DNA of 64,000 nt from assembly GCF_009664365.1 (NCBI RefSeq), contig NZ_CP044310.1, positions 390,501 to 454,500 on the forward strand. Reading direction: 5' to 3'. Source of the DNA: Paenibacillus xylanilyticus (GTDB lineage: Bacteria > Bacillota > Bacilli > Paenibacillales > Paenibacillaceae). The notes beneath the pieces were generated by a model. That model was not told the DNA's origin and made no database searches. It worked only from the letters and a program-made list of their open reading frames with translations. The translations under genes and the position numbers were made by a program. Of this stretch, positions 32,500-39,183 are shown piece after piece. Every line of letters starts with the position of its first letter. Positions within the stretch are counted from its first letter, which is position 1.

Positions 32500-32858
32500 G
32501 ATCCGAATTTCCTCCCCTGTTCCTTCAATTGTCCCACTATGTAATTACCCTGCTGCAAGGCAGCCAATCGTATATGATAGGCCATCTTTCCTGATTATAC
32601 TAAAAGCCCTTGGGAAAGGAAAAAGATAGGCAGCAATTTTACGGAAAATCAGTCTCTTTTGCTCTTTTTTGGCAGCTGGAGGTTTGGTTTTGGTGCTTGC
32701 GGGTGATAAGATGAAGTATACGCGATGTGGAAGCGAAAATAATGAAAAGTAAAGTGCTAATTAACGGCCTTGGAATATTCACATTCGAAAAAAGAACGGA
32801 ATATGCACGGACGGAACCAATTGGGATCAGATGTGCGATTAATGATAAAGGAGCAAGA
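32500..32858. other. Divergent intergenic region
   Basis: No supported gene. A minus-strand -10 TATAAT (32599-32594) is a plausible promoter element for the aldo/keto reductase, without a good -35. An ORF open from 32727 is only the upstream extension of the DUF445 gene; it has no ribosome site at its first start codon. Confidence 0.45.
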
Positions 32859-34118
32859 ATGATGGCTAAACCTAAACAAACCAAAAAGGCAGCAGCCTGG
32901 TCACTCGTCGTAATGGGGGCAGGTTTTGCCGCTTCATTGCCGTTTCAGGGCAGTGTTGTAGGCAAGCTGCTGGTGGGTTCATTTGAAGCGGGATTGGTAG
33001 GGGGGCTTGCCGACTGGTTCGCTGTAACGGCATTGTTCCGACACCCGCTCGGCATTCCGATTCCGCATACGGCCTTGCTGCCGAAGAACCGGGATAAGAT
33101 GACGGAGGGCCTTGTTTCTGCGGTGGAGAACAATCTGCTCAACAAAGACAGCATTACCGAGAAAATTGCCGGTTTCAAGGCAGCGGAAACGGTGCTCGAC
33201 ATCATGTCACGTGAACTTCACAATGATGGCGTCAAAACAATGATCGACACGCTGTGCAAACGTATTCTGGCTGGGCTGCCGCTGGAGCAGATAGCGCCGC
33301 TGGTTGCGAGCGAGATCAAATCACAGGCCGGGGCTTTCGACCTTGGACCGATCCTGGAACGGGCGTCCATTCAATTGAGTGAACGTGGATATGACACGAA
33401 GGCGCTGGACTACGGCTTGAAGCAGGCGGAAGAGTGGCTGGTGAAGCCGGAGACCATCACGTTTCTGGGTGAGAGCGGCATGAAGGCAATAAGTGGCATT
33501 CAGATGAATGGCCTTATGCAATTTGCCATGAATGCCTTCCTTGGCTATATGAATGAGGAGAAGCTTGGCAGCATCCTGCAGGGATATTTGTTTGACCAGG
33601 TAGAAGATATGAAGCGTGAGGGAAGTGCCCTCCGATATAAGGTGTTAGGTCTGGTTCGAACTCAAGCGGTGCGTCTTGCCTTGAACGAAAGTGTTCGCGG
33701 CGGATTGAACGGCTGGAAAGACAGCCTGCTGGACAGCTGGAACGCGGAAGAAACCGTGCTGAACAAGCTTACCGAACTGCGGGATAGAGCACTCACCGCT
33801 ATGGAGGATGGAAAGTATGTGGAGACGTATGCGCTCCCTGCCATTGAACGGGTATTGTCCGATCTGCGCTCAGACCGTGCATTGCTGGATGGCATGAATG
33901 CCAAGATTGTCGAAGGCGTAACAACGCTGCTGGAGAAGAACCATTCCAAGATCGGTAATCTGGTCCGTGAAAATGTTGATAAAATGGATAATGCCTCATT
34001 AATCTCATTGATTGAGGACAAGGTAGGCCAGGATCTCCAATGGATTCGGATTAACGGCGCCGTGACCGGGTTCGTTATCGGTATTGCGCTAACTGCCCTG
34101 CGGATGGTACTGGAATAA
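32859..34118 (+). CDS. DUF445 (YjiN-like) membrane protein
   Basis: A 419-residue protein. An N-terminal hydrophobic segment (AWSLVVMGAGFAASLPF), then LVGSFEAGLVGGLADWFAVTALFRHPLGIPIPHTALLP, the hallmark of DUF445 proteins, and a last membrane segment near the C-terminus (VTGFVIGIALTALRMVLE). Between them lies a long helical region of about 300 residues. The family is widespread and its function is unknown. ATG at 32859 follows AAAGGAG; the reading frame is open upstream but unlike the family. Confidence 0.88.
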   Translation: MMAKPKQTKKAAAWSLVVMGAGFAASLPFQGSVVGKLLVGSFEAGLVGGLADWFAVTALFRHPLGIPIPHTALLPKNRDKMTEGLVSAVENNLLNKDSITEKIAGFKAAETVLDIMSRELHNDGVKTMIDTLCKRILAGLPLEQIAPLVASEIKSQAGAFDLGPILERASIQLSERGYDTKALDYGLKQAEEWLVKPETITFLGESGMKAISGIQMNGLMQFAMNAFLGYMNEEKLGSILQGYLFDQVEDMKREGSALRYKVLGLVRTQAVRLALNESVRGGLNGWKDSLLDSWNAEETVLNKLTELRDRALTAMEDGKYVETYALPAIERVLSDLRSDRALLDGMNAKIVEGVTTLLEKNHSKIGNLVRENVDKMDNASLISLIEDKVGQDLQWIRINGAVTGFVIGIALTALRMVLE

Positions 34119-34140
34119 GATCGTAAGCTTAGTAAATTGG

Positions 34141-34170
34141 AGGGCTGCCCCTATATGGGCAGCTCTATTT
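34141..34170 (+). terminator. Terminator after the DUF445 gene
   Basis: AGGGCTGCCC / GGGCAGCTCT, one wobble pair, six-base loop, then a short T-rich stretch. Confidence 0.65.
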
Positions 34171-34372
34171 TGCGTGTCTGCGCAAATACCGCAAAATTGT
34201 TGCAAAAATCAGGAAATGGGGTAATGTAACCCGAATCCTTTGCTGGAACCATTTAGGAGGAAAGTTATATAAAAACGATGCCGTGAGCCGATGTAGGCAT
34301 GTTGATTTTGTACTATGATGCAGTTAACAACATTAAATTGAATGAATGAAAATCAAAGAGAAGGTGATCATC

Positions 34373-34732
34373 GTGCGGTGGATACGCAAATTATCATGTT
34401 TATGCTTATTAACCATATTATCTGCTTGTATTCTGGGAGGGTGTCAAAACATGAAGGAAAGTGAAAAACAAGCCTATTTTACTGAGGCGGAGACAGAAGC
34501 AATAAAGTATTTTAAAGATAAGTTTGAGTTGAACGTCGTTATTACAAATAAGGAATTGCTACCTGAGATGGCGCTGGACTCCATCGCGCTGGAGGGACAT
34601 GTGGCCGAGCATGAGGATCAGGAGTTTACGATCTCATATGATTATAACGAGAAAAAGATGAAAAATTTTGGCATGAGTCCTGCCATCAAGGAAGCGATTA
34701 TAGCTAAAGGCTATGACCCTTATGAAAAATAG
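34373..34732 (+). CDS. Small lipoprotein, candidate immunity protein of the lipase cassette
   Basis: A 119-residue lipoprotein. A basic start (RWIRKL) and hydrophobic segment end in lipobox ACILGGC, giving lipid attachment at about residue 24. The mature part (YFTEAETEAIKYFKDKF, then SIALEGHVAEHEDQEFTISYDYNEK) resembles small DUF1433-type lipoproteins as I remember them. GTG at 34373 follows AGAAGGTGATC; the earlier ATG at 34346 has no ribosome site. It lies 33 bases before the lipase gene. In Staphylococcus aureus the lipoprotein TilA protects against the lipase toxin TslA, so an immunity role is inferred. The gene is AT-rich beside its neighbours. Confidence 0.75.
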   Translation: MRWIRKLSCLCLLTILSACILGGCQNMKESEKQAYFTEAETEAIKYFKDKFELNVVITNKELLPEMALDSIALEGHVAEHEDQEFTISYDYNEKKMKNFGMSPAIKEAIIAKGYDPYEK

Positions 34733-34765
34733 AAGTCCAATGATTCTTTTTGGAGGTGAAGCAGT

Positions 34766-36058
34766 GTGGGGGACGCGCAAAAAATTGATGATGAAACATA
34801 TCGTTTAATGTCCGAACTGGCTTATGAAAATGCAAAAGCGGGCACGGAGTATGCGAATCTGCCTGGCTGGCAGGTTCTCGAAGATACGCATGGTAATTCC
34901 TACTCCGGATTCGATGCCGTGACATTTTATAACCCGGAAACCGAACAGGCTGTCATTGCTTATCGGGGCACAGAGGGAAGTGCCGGATGGGATCGAAAAG
35001 GCCGTGACTTTTACGCGGATGGACAGATTGCCATTCCGGAGCTGGGAAGGAAGATTGAGCAGAGCACGGACATCACACCCGATTGGTTATCTAGTGGAAT
35101 CCAGAAAGTCAGGGATGTGACAGGTATAACCACCGTGGAGAATGCTGTGGGGGAACTGGATAAAAAGCTGGATAAGACATTCAGCATAGGTCCTAACCAA
35201 ATGTATGAAGCCGAAGACTATGCCAAAGACATGCAGAATAAATACAAAAATTTGGATTTCTCATTGACGGGACATTCGCTCGGAGGAGGAAATGCACAAT
35301 ATGCGGCTGCATATACAGGGCTTCCGGCAGTTACGTTCAGTGCACCTTCCGTGATCTCAAGCCTCACGCCAGAGATGAAACGAAAGGCGGAGGAAGGTGG
35401 ATTTGATGATCAGATTATTAACTATGGGCATCCAGGAGATTTTGTAGCAAGTGGTTTTTTCGGAGGGTATGATCGTCATGTTGGGTCCATGTATTACATC
35501 AATTCCAACTACAAAGACATGAATGACAGCATGAGTATGATGGATAAGATTAACAATACATTTGGCGGAAAGGAATACCATGACCTGAAACAATATCAGT
35601 TCGAGAATGGTTATATCTCCAATGATTTGTACGATCCGGTCACAGGTGAGAAGGTGGGATATTCTCCACGTCAGCCGTCGAATGCTTTGTTGGATCTCGC
35701 TGCCTTCATGCGAAATATAGGGGCGCAAGCAAGCAACTTGACCAGAAACATGGCTGCAATGGGGGCCGCTTCCGGTCTGATTCAGGTAACGCCGGAAGAA
35801 CTGAAGAGCGTCGCTTCCCGTTGGAAGCAAAATGCACAGCAGTGCAACGCTGAGCTCAATCAGGTGCGCAGCCGCATGGCTCAATATCTGCATACCAGCC
35901 GCAGTCGCAGACTGGAACCTATTGTAACCCAGCTTGATGCGTCCATTAACGAATTAAGTACATGGCATATGAAGCATACGAGTCAATTCCTCGACTTCAT
36001 TGATCAGAAGGCAGATGCCTTCCGCCAGGCGGATGAGAGTCCGGTTCATTTTAATTAA
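34766..36058 (+). CDS. Class 3 lipase with C-terminal WXG-like domain (TslA-like)
   Basis: A 430-residue protein without signal peptide. Residues 1-300 form a lipase_3 alpha/beta hydrolase: AVIAYRGTEG (oxyanion region), SLTGHSLGGG with nucleophile Ser171, candidate Asp225 in GHPGDFV and His238 in YDRHVGS. Residues 340-425 are helical: VTPEELKSVASRWKQNAQQC, a turn, and a second long helix to DQKADAFRQAD, like a WXG100 hairpin lacking the WxG itself. Toxin domain first and targeting helices last is the reversed order described for TslA, a type VII secreted phospholipase. The start is GTG after GGAGGTG. Secretion and toxicity are inferred. Confidence 0.8.
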   Translation: MGDAQKIDDETYRLMSELAYENAKAGTEYANLPGWQVLEDTHGNSYSGFDAVTFYNPETEQAVIAYRGTEGSAGWDRKGRDFYADGQIAIPELGRKIEQSTDITPDWLSSGIQKVRDVTGITTVENAVGELDKKLDKTFSIGPNQMYEAEDYAKDMQNKYKNLDFSLTGHSLGGGNAQYAAAYTGLPAVTFSAPSVISSLTPEMKRKAEEGGFDDQIINYGHPGDFVASGFFGGYDRHVGSMYYINSNYKDMNDSMSMMDKINNTFGGKEYHDLKQYQFENGYISNDLYDPVTGEKVGYSPRQPSNALLDLAAFMRNIGAQASNLTRNMAAMGAASGLIQVTPEELKSVASRWKQNAQQCNAELNQVRSRMAQYLHTSRSRRLEPIVTQLDASINELSTWHMKHTSQFLDFIDQKADAFRQADESPVHFN

Positions 36059-36114
36059 ACACCGGAGCAGCCAGGAGATCGATAATGATATGTACATAAG
36101 GGGAGGGGATAAGC

Positions 36115-36387
36115 ATGAGCGGACAATTGCTGGTGGAACTGAATGACCTTCGAATTGCGGAGAAGGAGCTTACACGGCTGCTGGCCCGCCTGCAGGCAGA
36201 TGAGCAGGAAGCCAGAGCCCTGTATGCGCGGCTGAATGACTGGAAGGGTCAGTCGGCTGACTACACCAGGCAGCAGATTGAAGGATTCTTCGCAGGGCTG
36301 TCCAGTCGAATCCATTCAATAGAACAGCAGAAGCAGAGCTTGCTGCAATATATTGAGATCATGATTCAGACGGATCAGGAACGTTAA
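36115..36387 (+). CDS. WXG100-like small helical partner protein
   Basis: A 90-residue helix-turn-helix-hairpin protein. The first helix (VELNDLRIAEKELTRLLARLQADEQEARALYARL) is followed by a turn containing W-K-G (DWKGQSADY), the WxG motif, then a second helix to the end. This is the shape of WXG100 proteins and of the Lap/Tla partner proteins that pair with type VII substrates. It follows the lipase gene by 56 bases with its own GGGGAGGGG site. One partner is visible, where S. aureus TslA has two. Identity as the lipase partner is inferred from position. Confidence 0.75.
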   Translation: MSGQLLVELNDLRIAEKELTRLLARLQADEQEARALYARLNDWKGQSADYTRQQIEGFFAGLSSRIHSIEQQKQSLLQYIEIMIQTDQER

Positions 36388-36432
36388 TCGTAAACGTTGA
36401 AAACGAAGAATGGGAAATCTGATCTTACAAGA

Positions 36433-36464
36433 AAGAGCCTTGGCATATCTGCCAGGGCTCTTTT
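36433..36464 (+). terminator. Terminator of the lipase cassette
   Basis: AAGAGCC-TGGC / GCCA-GGCTCTT with a six-base loop and TTTT. It closes the three-gene unit before the converging copper genes. Confidence 0.8.
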
Positions 36465-36495
36465 GTTACGCTCAACTATATTTAAAGACTGTGTA

Positions 36496-37278
36496 TTATT
36501 TCTTTTTGCGGCGTGTGGCGAGTGCAATGCCCAGGAAGGACATAATCAGTGCCAGAATGGATACGATCAGTGTGGCCTGCTGCAGCTTCAATGTACCCGG
36601 ATCTGAGTCCGTATTATTCGGCTCACCTGTAACCGTGTCGTTCAATGCATCACCGAGCGTGGTATCATCGTCAGCCTTGGTATCGTCTGCAGCATTGTTA
36701 TCTCCAGCGGCTGCTTCGTCATCGCTTGCATTGCCAGCTGTACCTGCGCTGTCATGGCCACCCGCTGCGGCTTGATTGCCTGCAGCTGCAGGATCTTCGC
36801 TAATAGCCGTAATGCTGTGAGGTGTGCTGTCATTAGGCTGGCCTGTCCACTCTACGATACTGCCATCGCTATAGTATTGGAATGCGTCCCAGGCGACTTC
36901 CGTTGCTGTATCCGGATTTTGTGCGACAAAGTTAAATTGCTGGAATTGTCCGGCGAGGATCCCCTCGTTATCTCCATCCACTTCCCAGGTAATCGATGTT
37001 ACTTCGTTCGAGCTGTTTTTCTCCGTGGTGATTTTCCATCCAGCCAGTGGCTGATATTGCTTGAATGCTACACCTTCCGGAACCTTCATCGTGATCTTGG
37101 TTGTTGGCAGATCCTTCTCGGAAGGGATCTTGATCGTGTACGTCTGCCATGCTCCAGTCTGTGCAGCCGCCGGGCTGACAGTAACGTGAGCACTCGCGAA
37201 GCCGGCGAACAGCATGAGCGCTGCAGCACCTGCCGCTATAGTGGATGTAAGTTTGGAAGTCCAGGATGTTCTTTTCAA
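36496..37278 (-). CDS. ycnI: YcnI-type copper-binding surface protein
   Basis: A 260-residue DUF1775 protein. A signal peptide ends ASA, so the mature protein begins HVTVSPAAAQTG; in Bacillus subtilis YcnI an N-terminal His and a Trp bind Cu(II), and both sequence contexts are here. The YcnI domain covers residues 31-160 (KIPSEKDLPTTKITMKVPEGV, then SITWEVDGDNEGILAGQFQQFNF). An acidic Ala/Asp/Gly linker leads to a C-terminal membrane anchor and RRKKK. It is 32 bases downstream of ycnJ in one operon and probably passes copper to it. Confidence 0.9.
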   Translation of the reverse strand: MKRTSWTSKLTSTIAAGAAALMLFAGFASAHVTVSPAAAQTGAWQTYTIKIPSEKDLPTTKITMKVPEGVAFKQYQPLAGWKITTEKNSSNEVTSITWEVDGDNEGILAGQFQQFNFVAQNPDTATEVAWDAFQYYSDGSIVEWTGQPNDSTPHSITAISEDPAAAGNQAAAGGHDSAGTAGNASDDEAAAGDNNAADDTKADDDTTLGDALNDTVTGEPNNTDSDPGTLKLQQATLIVSILALIMSFLGIALATRRKKK

Positions 37279-37309
37279 AATAAATAACCCCTCTCTTTTT
37301 CTAGAAAAA

Positions 37310-39004
37310 TTATGGATTCGCTGTGTTGATCTCGAACTCGGTATCCAGTGAATCGAGGGATCGAGTCAACAGGTGAACCTTGATGCTCCATCGTCCAGGC
37401 ATGGAGATGTACTCTTCTGCTTGATACACGCCTGTATCGTTTTTGGGAATGGTGATTTCATAAATTCCCATATCCATATCCAGGTGGGTCAGCGTTAAGG
37501 TGATCTGCTCCAGATCATTGACTACGCTGCCGTCAGGTGCTTTTACACCAACCTCGAACTGATTCTCACCAGTGACATTAGGGCTGACCTGGAGCGTGAT
37601 CGCTGAGCCATCCTCTGTCGTTTGTACTTCCTTGAACGGACCAGCGGCTTCAGGCTGTCCGGGGGACAGATGGGTAAGTACAGCAGCCAGCGCCAGCACA
37701 ACGGCACCTGTCGCGAGCTCTGCTTTGAGACTGCCAGCCAGTCGGGTACCCTTGCCCTGTCTGGCCGTTCGGGCATGCCGCCATGCGAATGCGATCATTA
37801 CCAGCAGCAAAACGATCTTCGCGAGCAGCACATAACCATAGGTGGTGGTGAACAGGGAGGTCAGTACAGGTTTGGGTAAAATGATCAGACTGCTATAGAT
37901 CCCTGTAGCAACCAGAGCGGCCACAGCACCAATGCCCCAAGCTGCAAACCGGCGGATCGCTCCCCAATACACCTCTCCTCGTACCTTCGGAGGAAGCTTG
38001 TCAGCCAGTGGAGGCAGACAAACCGCCATGGCCGTCAGGGCACCAATCCAGAATGCTGCTGCAATCAGGTGGACGTAGTCCATGGTTATGGCAAGTCCGC
38101 GCTGCTCGGCTGCGGCAGGATGACCTGTCATAGCATGCGTGAGCAGCCATCCCAGTACAAGTACCAGTGAACCATAAGATGACCAGAGGCGGATCTTCAA
38201 TGAGCGATCCCGGTCATATCCTGACAGGATTGTGACTGCAAGCAGCATCAGAATGAGCATCTGTGCCATCCATATGAGGCCAAACGACGTTAGCTTCAAG
38301 GCACTGCCCATCAGTGCCCAGCTGAATTCATGGATAGCCACCCCTGACTCGTAAATGGTGTTCAGCGGCAAACTGATGATTGCAGCAACAGAAGCTGCGG
38401 CATAGCTGATCCATAACAGCTTATAGCTGCCTGGCACCTCCATGGGTTCTCTTACCATAGAGGACGGAGCAATCCGGAAGAGCAGGAAGGCGAGCGTGCC
38501 CAGGATGACAGACAATGCAAGATATTGAATCCAATCGGTCAGCGACAGTATCCATTTGATTGGACCGCCCGTTTGACCAGTACCGGAGGCCAGATCCGCC
38601 AGACCCGCAGGGGCACCTGACGGTTCACCGATATGGAATACATAGGCTCCCTGAATGGGATGGCCATCGGCCGACACGGCTTTCCAGCTGACGGCATATG
38701 TACCGTTGCCAAGCCCGCTGCGCAGCCCCGTTTCAAGCACGTGAGGACGCTCGGCATCTATCTGCACGCTGCCGTCATCCGCTTGTGTGCCGTCAGGTGC
38801 GGTAATTTTAATATCATAGAAGGCCGTTTGCAGCGATTCATTGAATTCCAGTGTCAAGCGTTCTGGCGCGGTGGCTATCAGCTCGTCCTCCCCTGGCGAG
38901 GCCTGAACAATATAAGCATGGGCTGAAGCCCATTGCGGCATAACCAGACAACACATGAGCAGCAGTGAAATCATTACGGCCCAGTGCCGTTTGTCCCATC
39001 TCAT
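37310..39004 (-). CDS. ycnJ: CopC/CopD-type copper importer (YcnJ)
   Basis: A 564-residue fusion. A signal peptide precedes the CopC domain, which starts at HAYIVQASPGEDE and runs to about 125 (GAYVFHIG); the copper-binding His at the mature N-terminus is present. Eight or so membrane segments follow with the CopD features (AWIGALTAMAVCLPPLADK-type loop and LTHAMTGHPAA). The C-terminal 110 residues are a soluble beta domain of the FixH/YtkA kind. YcnJ imports copper in B. subtilis. ATG at 39004 is preferred; a TTG at 39025 with GAGGGTGATG upstream is also possible and would add seven residues. Confidence 0.9.
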   Translation of the reverse strand: MRWDKRHWAVMISLLLMCCLVMPQWASAHAYIVQASPGEDELIATAPERLTLEFNESLQTAFYDIKITAPDGTQADDGSVQIDAERPHVLETGLRSGLGNGTYAVSWKAVSADGHPIQGAYVFHIGEPSGAPAGLADLASGTGQTGGPIKWILSLTDWIQYLALSVILGTLAFLLFRIAPSSMVREPMEVPGSYKLLWISYAAASVAAIISLPLNTIYESGVAIHEFSWALMGSALKLTSFGLIWMAQMLILMLLAVTILSGYDRDRSLKIRLWSSYGSLVLVLGWLLTHAMTGHPAAAEQRGLAITMDYVHLIAAAFWIGALTAMAVCLPPLADKLPPKVRGEVYWGAIRRFAAWGIGAVAALVATGIYSSLIILPKPVLTSLFTTTYGYVLLAKIVLLLVMIAFAWRHARTARQGKGTRLAGSLKAELATGAVVLALAAVLTHLSPGQPEAAGPFKEVQTTEDGSAITLQVSPNVTGENQFEVGVKAPDGSVVNDLEQITLTLTHLDMDMGIYEITIPKNDTGVYQAEEYISMPGRWSIKVHLLTRSLDSLDTEFEINTANP

Positions 39005-39183
39005 CGTAAAACGTCCTAAACTCAAAAAAACATCACCCTCAGGTTATAGAATTGTAGTTATTCTTCGGATGCCGATAACAATCTATACCATTATAACTTT
39101 GTCCAAAATAACGGCGTATGACTACATCGGGCTATAAAAAAACGATTATATTCCAAGAATTGTGACAAAAGCATGAATGCTTG

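Follow-up and report, generated by a model that had tools for sequence, protein, structure and literature searches.

Export through type VII secretion systems (T7SSs) has been described as relying on a two-part signal, and in LXG systems the LxG half lies on the toxin and the FxxxD half on its partner, according to the parts of PMC13355648 and PMC9600955 available to us. For the Staphylococcus aureus lipase TslA, the accessible text of PMC10730906 reports that the partner proteins TlaA1 and TlaA2 show no clear F/YxxxD/E motif and calls for more work. Lipases of the same reverse order have been placed at a T7SSe locus in Neobacillus and a T7SSg locus in Paenibacillus aquistagni in the available sections of PMC11217815; there, T7SSc substrates are exemplified by an HNH nuclease and an Rhs protein, and reverse lipases are given for T7SSe and T7SSg only. 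Across the literature searched, which was made up mostly of papers outside subscription and held no preprints, and which included the accessible parts of PMC3935865 and PMC12558993, no reverse lipase was reported for T7SSc. Here we describe a three-gene cassette in Paenibacillus xylanilyticus, whose genome is a single contig of 6,447,596 bases. The cassette lies within positions 390501-454500, a 64,000-base stretch referred to below as the window, and coordinates are those of the window unless stated otherwise. We named its genes til, tsl and tla after TilA, TslA and TlaA. til-tsl-tla is probably a cassette for an antibacterial phospholipase toxin, Tsl, to be exported by the T7SSc-type machine of the genome, with a C-terminal hairpin that likely pairs with Tla; Til is expected to inactivate the lipase on the outer side of the membrane in the producer and its kin. 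Secretion, Tsl–Tla pairing, enzyme activity, substrate, killing and immunity are what we infer from the lines of evidence set out below.

The three genes are closely spaced on the plus strand, with intergenic gaps of 33 and 56 bases. til (34373..34732, +) encodes a predicted lipoprotein, likely an immunity protein, of 119 residues when read from the GTG at 34373, or of 128 residues from the ATG at 34346, to which the frame is also open. tsl (34766..36058, +) starts with GTG and encodes a lipase-fold protein of 430 residues with a C-terminal WXG100-like hairpin, and tla (36115..36387, +) starts with ATG and encodes a predicted helical partner of 90 residues with a WxG motif and a TscA-type profile match. 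Putative ribosome-binding sites, judged by eye, stand upstream of each start (AAGGTG for the til GTG at 34373, GGAGGTG for tsl and GGGGAGGGG for tla). A first-pass annotation had called three packed genes for a lipoprotein, a lipase and a WxG protein; the open reading frames (ORFs), together with a lipobox, a GHSLGG motif and a WKG motif, bear this out.

The lipase domain forms the exchangeable half of Tsl (about residues 1-332; 34766..35761, +). Its nucleophile elbow, GHSLGG at residues 169-174 (35270..35287, +), is invariant in 62 sequences, and S171, D225, H238 and H272 are likewise invariant across 62 aligned sequences. We propose that D225 and H272 complete the catalytic triad with S171, H272 being preferred to H238 on the basis of class-3 lipase topology. 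Among profile matches, those to Pfam Mbeg1-like (26 bits against a cut-off of 21.1) and Lipase_3 (22.4 against 22) barely cleared their cut-offs, and that to NCBIfam SA1320_fam fell far under it (61.7 against 230). Structure prediction returned a class-3 lipase fold followed by a hairpin apparently of WXG100 type, so that the lipase initially proposed from its catalytic GHSLGG is consistent with both motif and modelled fold. The nearest named lipases among the matches listed, at 98% identity, come from Paenibacillus illinoisensis and P. xylanilyticus.

We then considered how well the cassette is conserved. A match to the lipase or a paralogue was found in 65 of the 75 genomes of the genus, and all three genes were present at 29/29 near-relative loci (L012-L040); this locus pattern is thus more than chance. 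Further loci were selected for spread rather than at random, and the 64 tsl ORFs of at least 400 residues were reduced to 63 by removal of one duplicate. til adjoins every one of these 63 distinct full-length tsl genes and tla adjoins 58 of them, with til beside the toxin half and tla beside the targeting half, the arrangement of a reverse-order T7SS lipase. Even in the most distant Paenibacillus subfamily (~28% identity), til is divergent yet still adjoins the toxin half. Among tsl genes without their own tla, those of L052, L054, L055 and L062 lie in arrays with a tla after another tsl (in L052 and L054 this other, tla-linked tsl is broken), and L083 has none. A scan of named genomes yielded at least 79 loci; among the matches listed there, til lay within the set distances of 70 of 75 tsl ORFs of at least 350 residues, a tla hit was found for 55 of 61 WXG100-type tails, and the lipase-lipoprotein pairing is widespread in Bacillota. 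The cassette is thus real and conserved, and it is likely an antibacterial toxin-immunity cassette.

Til carries a lipobox (LGGC), whose Cys codon lies at 34442..34444 (+) and whose Cys is aligned in 60 of 63 relatives. Half of the listed database relatives (9/18) are 93 residues long, leaving the lipobox outside the protein, and because such entries start past it the signal peptide is easily missed in annotation. In the window, 34373-34441 is the segment omitted from many database versions of til, which masks the likely lipoprotein nature of the product. The mature protein was modelled with a predicted local distance difference test (pLDDT) score of 90.7, and a Foldseek search for similar structures found none below E 0.001. 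Pfam DUF576 was not matched by the window protein at E 1 or by any of 49 family members at E 0.1, so that Til is not TilA by sequence. Pfam DUF1433 was likewise unmatched by the window protein at E 1; three of the 49 family members matched it at E 0.1 (best E 8.5e-4), and a comparison of profiles relates Til to DUF1433-type lipoproteins.

A lipoprotein gene immediately upstream of a lipase would equally suit a helper: Til could instead be anchored in the membrane to fold or chaperone a secreted lipase with a nutritional or housekeeping role, the hairpin and Tla still targeting that lipase to T7SSc. However, til is repeated beside single lipases, with four copies in L069, five in L088 and up to seven ORFs, some of them short, in L094. 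Of the 10 genomes of the genus in which no lipase match was detected, 4 nevertheless have til, and the genome of the window itself carries an orphan til (G000:C1:1576305-1576547; L187:3297-3635) with a weak 33-codon trace of tsl at a distance of ~100 bases. This may be the remnant of a decayed cassette in which the likely immunity gene was retained. Copy number, lipase-free occurrence and the orphan copy would all fit the behaviour of an immunity gene. Furthermore, til changes jointly with the lipase domain, as the comparison of relatives below indicates. A helper requires no repeats, orphans or joint change, and we accordingly regard the foldase explanation as improbable compared with immunity.

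Joint change was assessed with identity matrices for 58 trios, in which the Til matrix correlated best with that of the lipase domain (r 0.918) and the highest correlation of all joined the hairpin to Tla (r 0.977). Weighing against a strong use of these values, every matrix pair correlates at 0.86 or more, as expected from shared descent alone, and shared descent thus accounts for much of the signal. A sharper picture came from locus L040, which compared with the window is 99% identical in the hairpin and 100% in Tla, and 62% in the lipase domain and 68% in Til. At the DNA level, identity to L040 is 91.6% over the block 33273-34330 and 92.5% over 35762-37565; it runs at 50-76% per 100 bases across 34301-35800 and at 94-99% over the next 600 bases. 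The breakpoints fall just upstream of til and at the start of the hairpin, delimiting an apparently exchanged block of til plus the lipase domain (34331..35761, no strand assigned) that diverges between flanks matching L040. We read this as a natural swap in which toxin and immunity moved together, ahead of a constant export module.

The same observations bear on the target of the toxin. Soil and plant roots are habitats of Paenibacillus, and a T7SSc-exported lipase might hit eukaryotes (fungi, protozoa, or plant or nematode cells), with Til merely preventing self-damage. The fold matches of Tsl do take in fungal lipases and plant EDS1 lipase-like proteins, although these are uninformative on target. 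By comparison, the copies and variants of til and the exchange of toxin-til blocks between relatives fit kin competition, and the lipase-lipoprotein pairing is common to many Bacillota among the matches listed. A eukaryotic target is therefore highly unlikely in our estimation, and we retain the antibacterial one.

Next, we examined the C-terminal half of Tsl and its putative partner. Residues 339-424 (35780..36037, +) form a helical hairpin that is WXG100-like and lacks WxG, with helices modelled at residues 343-377 and 383-424. The first-pass annotation had expected a helical tail without WxG and had named a helical-hairpin pairing of residues 340-425 with the small protein as the feature to look for; of this, the hairpin itself is predicted, at 343-424. 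In hhalign, the tail aligned over its full length with TscA-type proteins (96%, E 3e-9), and Tla aligned with the same proteins at 73% and E 3e-5. The WKG of Tla (W43, G45; 36241..36249, +) represents a W.G conserved in 58/58 Tla sequences. Set against a WXG100-type pairing are the model confidence of the hairpin, about 70 pLDDT, and the curated WXG100 cut-offs, under which both proteins fall (18.9 against 27.3 and 26 against 44.85 bits for the Tsl tail; 13.4 against 44.85 bits for Tla).

We asked which secretion machine could serve the cassette. At E 0.001 the window holds no EssC match, and its sole WXG100 match is the lipase tail, in line with the original remark that no other T7SS gene is present there. 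The machinery was accordingly expected elsewhere in the genome, and a single EssC above the family cut-off does lie outside the window, at genome positions 2556859-2560755 (1211.7 bits). This EssC has 1334 residues and no FHA match. Around it stand a YukD-like gene, a TscG-like gene of 276 residues, WXG100-type genes of 182 and 100 residues, and kinase-, vWA- and PP2C-type genes; the PP2C match is above the Pfam cut-off, those for the kinase and vWA genes fall short of theirs, and the YukD-like, TscB and TscG genes were assigned by look or position, TscB and TscG having no Pfam match. The search for T7SSb-type parts covered EssB and EsaA: YukC/EssB had no match anywhere in the genome, and EsaA-family matches were all below cut-off and located elsewhere. 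Judged by gene content, the machine appears to be of T7SSc type, in agreement with the T7SSc set given in the accessible part of PMC11217815.

Linkage between cassette and machine was found in relatives. In another genus (L086, L087 and L088), the cassette adjoins a cluster with relatives of TscC, TscA, TscE, TscD and TscG; no TscF relative was seen in these clusters. In six genomes of the same genus, paralogues of ~50% identity are separated by 15-49 kb from an additional EssC gene, which sits in a T7SSc-type cluster in all five regions fetched (L047, L049, L050, L053 and L056). Co-occurrence pointed the same way: across 295 family genomes, EssC was encoded by 54 of the 55 that had a lipase match versus 71 of the 240 that had none, the only EssC-less genome with a lipase match being G322, which is 85% complete; outside the genus the corresponding figures were 15/16 and 66/235. 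Within the genus EssC was uninformative as a predictor of the cassette, as 74 of 75 genomes have it, including nine of the ten without a lipase match. All 20 selected named genomes with reverse lipases, taken from the matches listed, encode EssC. Several facts nonetheless speak against a T7SSc assignment for the window cassette. It lies ~2.1 Mb from the T7SS of its own genome; some of the ~50%-identity paralogues are not near the second EssC; and in G006, the one remaining genome of the seven that have a second EssC, no paralogue was seen on that contig. In addition, the Fisher values ignore phylogeny, and the lipase matches include fragments, such as that in G212.

Other proteins were noted in connection with these machines. 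In the window genome, four forward-order proteins of 482, 462, 407 and 367 residues (G000:C1, about 6366252, 1014529, 1058127 and 2616043; L005, L007, L008 and L009) begin with a WXG100-type domain that has FxxxD at its end. Three score above the cut-off; the 367-residue protein (L009) is just under it and has no WxG. One of the four genes is followed by an SMI1-like gene, as judged by eye. On this domain content, all four are likely further T7SSc substrates. Beside the second T7SSc-type cluster at L047 (L047:2669-7480) is a gene for a 1603-residue Rhs-repeat protein with a pre-toxin domain, which parallels the Rhs protein published for another T7SSc locus in the available text of PMC11217815. 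In genomes with several copies (L046, L052, L054 and L055), large genes separate one til-tsl pair from the next in the neighbourhood of the second EssC; S-layer homology and DUF5704 domains were found in the two such genes tested, both at L046.

The kind of tail and the kind of machine tend to go together. Among the 20 named genomes, EssB was above cut-off in 9/9 with LXG-like tails versus 3/11 with WXG100-type tails, one of the latter at 35.5 bits (Fisher 0.0014, with descent ignored). Related lipase-lipoprotein pairs thus appear on two targeting modules, the choice of which tends to go with the machine. A strict rule that module follows machine was rejected, given EssB in 3 of 11 genomes with WXG100-type tails; counting against such a rule are strong EssB matches in L161 and L162 and a weak one in L160, all with the WXG100 module. 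L164 has a long EssC and no EssB.

These comparisons allowed us to consider whether the cassette could be no more than an orthologue of TslA, its tail being an LXG-like domain in the style of T7SSb and a second partner having been overlooked. Against this, only one partner was found: there is no second ORF of at least 50 residues between tsl and tla, and the Tla profile recovered no more than a single partner beside each lipase in the fetched cassettes of relatives, a search whose reach is that of the Tla profile; a second partner from a different sequence family could still be encoded elsewhere. The single visible partner reported earlier thus stands. Moreover, the Tsl tail aligns along its whole length with TscA-type proteins and has none of the inserted segments seen in the LXG-like tails of L169-L184, Til lacks a DUF576 match and the genome lacks EssB. 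Direct orthology with TslA is in our judgement an outside chance, and a T7SSc-type cassette with a WXG100-type hairpin is the reading we carry forward.

How the export signal is divided between the two proteins was then examined. Near the end of Tsl is the sequence F419-R-Q-A-D423 (36020..36034, +), an FxxxD that we propose as the export arm on the toxin; its F and D are present in 63/63 lipases and in 62/62 aligned rows. FxxxD falls within the last 30 residues of 63/63 lipases, and WxG is found in the last 100 residues of none of the 63. Conversely, WxG is present in 58/58 Tla proteins, and F/YxxxD/E in the last 20 residues of 0/58. As the lipase has no WxG, the sole complete pair in a heterodimer of known WXG100 dimer geometry is the WxG of Tla with the FxxxD of Tsl. 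In the named set, whose species overlap with the other set, all 61 WXG100-type tails among the matches listed have F/YxxxD and none has WxG, and WxG was found in 52 of 55 Tla proteins.

More distant relatives showed a looser form of this pattern. A hydrophobic-xxx-D was present at the matching aligned site near the lipase end in 21 of 22, including 13 of 14 LXG-like tails, where the tail pattern was relaxed post hoc and the LXG-like tails were sorted by eye; restricted to F or Y, the motif is in 7 of the 14. Their partners carry FDG in L169, L170, L172 and L173 and TDG in L174. The division is not clean, however. Tla retains M-xxx-D (M83 in 53/58, D87 in 57/58), which fits a looser hydrophobic-xxx-D definition and rules out the idea that Tla has completely lost the acidic half. 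Outside Paenibacillus, there is no exact WxG in the Tla proteins of L161, L162 and L164; the Tla of L165 has F/YxxxD/E near its end, and the Listeria partners L178 and L181 have no aromatic-x-G. The partners without exact WxG and the Listeria partners without aromatic-x-G weaken the reading of a divided signal.

With these points on both sides, we put forward tentatively, at somewhat under even odds, that in reverse-order toxins the last helix supplies the hydrophobic-xxx-D half and the partner the aromatic-x-G half, a mirror image of LXG systems. One lipase-immunity pair would also have been grafted on two modules matched to the machine, namely a WXG100-type hairpin plus Tla for T7SSc-type systems and an LXG-like module for T7SSb, so that T7SSc would also read its substrate tail-first. 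For the window cassette itself, the mechanism proposed as part of the main, probable reading is that the Tsl hairpin and Tla would form a WXG100-type heterodimer in which Tla gives the WxG turn and Tsl the FxxxD export arm, so that the EssC-type ATPase (TscC) would meet both parts of the signal in a single complex. Since the toxin half lies ahead of the signal, the molecule would be read tail-first, and Til would shield the producer and its kin by neutralising the lipase outside the membrane.

Such a divided signal would address the question of how T7SSs recognise substrates targeted by their tails, one half being invariant at the toxin end and the other invariant in the Paenibacillus partner. 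For T7SSc, for which few substrates are reported, the cassette would add a candidate effector family present in most examined genomes of one genus, and L040 illustrates what appears to be natural exchange of a toxin-immunity block ahead of a constant export module.

The immediate surroundings of the cassette consist of a DUF445 gene on the til side (32727-34118) and, on the tla side, two minus-strand genes (36496-39025) that are YcnI- and CopC/CopD-like by eye. A promoter scan gave a result at chance level, and PADLOC returned nothing useful. Sequence searches of the window proteins and the Til profile against solved structures gave no match under E 0.05.

Finally, we compared the cassette with described systems, relying for each on the accessible part of its source and on published descriptions. 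With the TslA-TilA-TlaA1-TlaA2 system of S. aureus (PMC10730906) it shares a polymorphic toxin half with a class-3-lipase-like fold. The parallel with TslA drawn in the first-pass annotation holds for the reverse order, the lipase, the lipoprotein and the partner; it does not extend to the machine, which here is T7SSc-type and lacks EssB where TslA belongs to T7SSb, to the tail, a WXG100-type hairpin here and LXG-like there, or to the lipoprotein, which here is DUF1433-related and has no DUF576 match, unlike TilA. There is also one partner here against two there (TlaA1 and TlaA2), so that the two-partner arrangement is absent, and a clear FxxxD stands at the toxin end here, whereas TlaA1 and TlaA2 are described as having no clear F/YxxxD/E. 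To the DUF1433 lipoproteins, such as Lin0334 (PDB 2k3d), Til of the window is related at profile level only. The reverse lipases of T7SSe and T7SSg (PMC11217815) share a C-terminal helical domain and a machine other than T7SSb, and one of them is from Paenibacillus. LXG toxins with their Lap partners (T7SSb; PMC9600955, PMC13355648) have in common with Tsl and Tla a toxin with a small helical partner and the combination of WxG or LxG with hydrophobic-xxx-D; there the toxin carries LxG and Lap FxxxD, whereas here the toxin carries FxxxD and the partner WxG, with the domain order reversed. Taken together, these comparisons of sequence suggest that til-tsl-tla is a variant of the reverse-order T7SS lipases with a specific account of its export signal.
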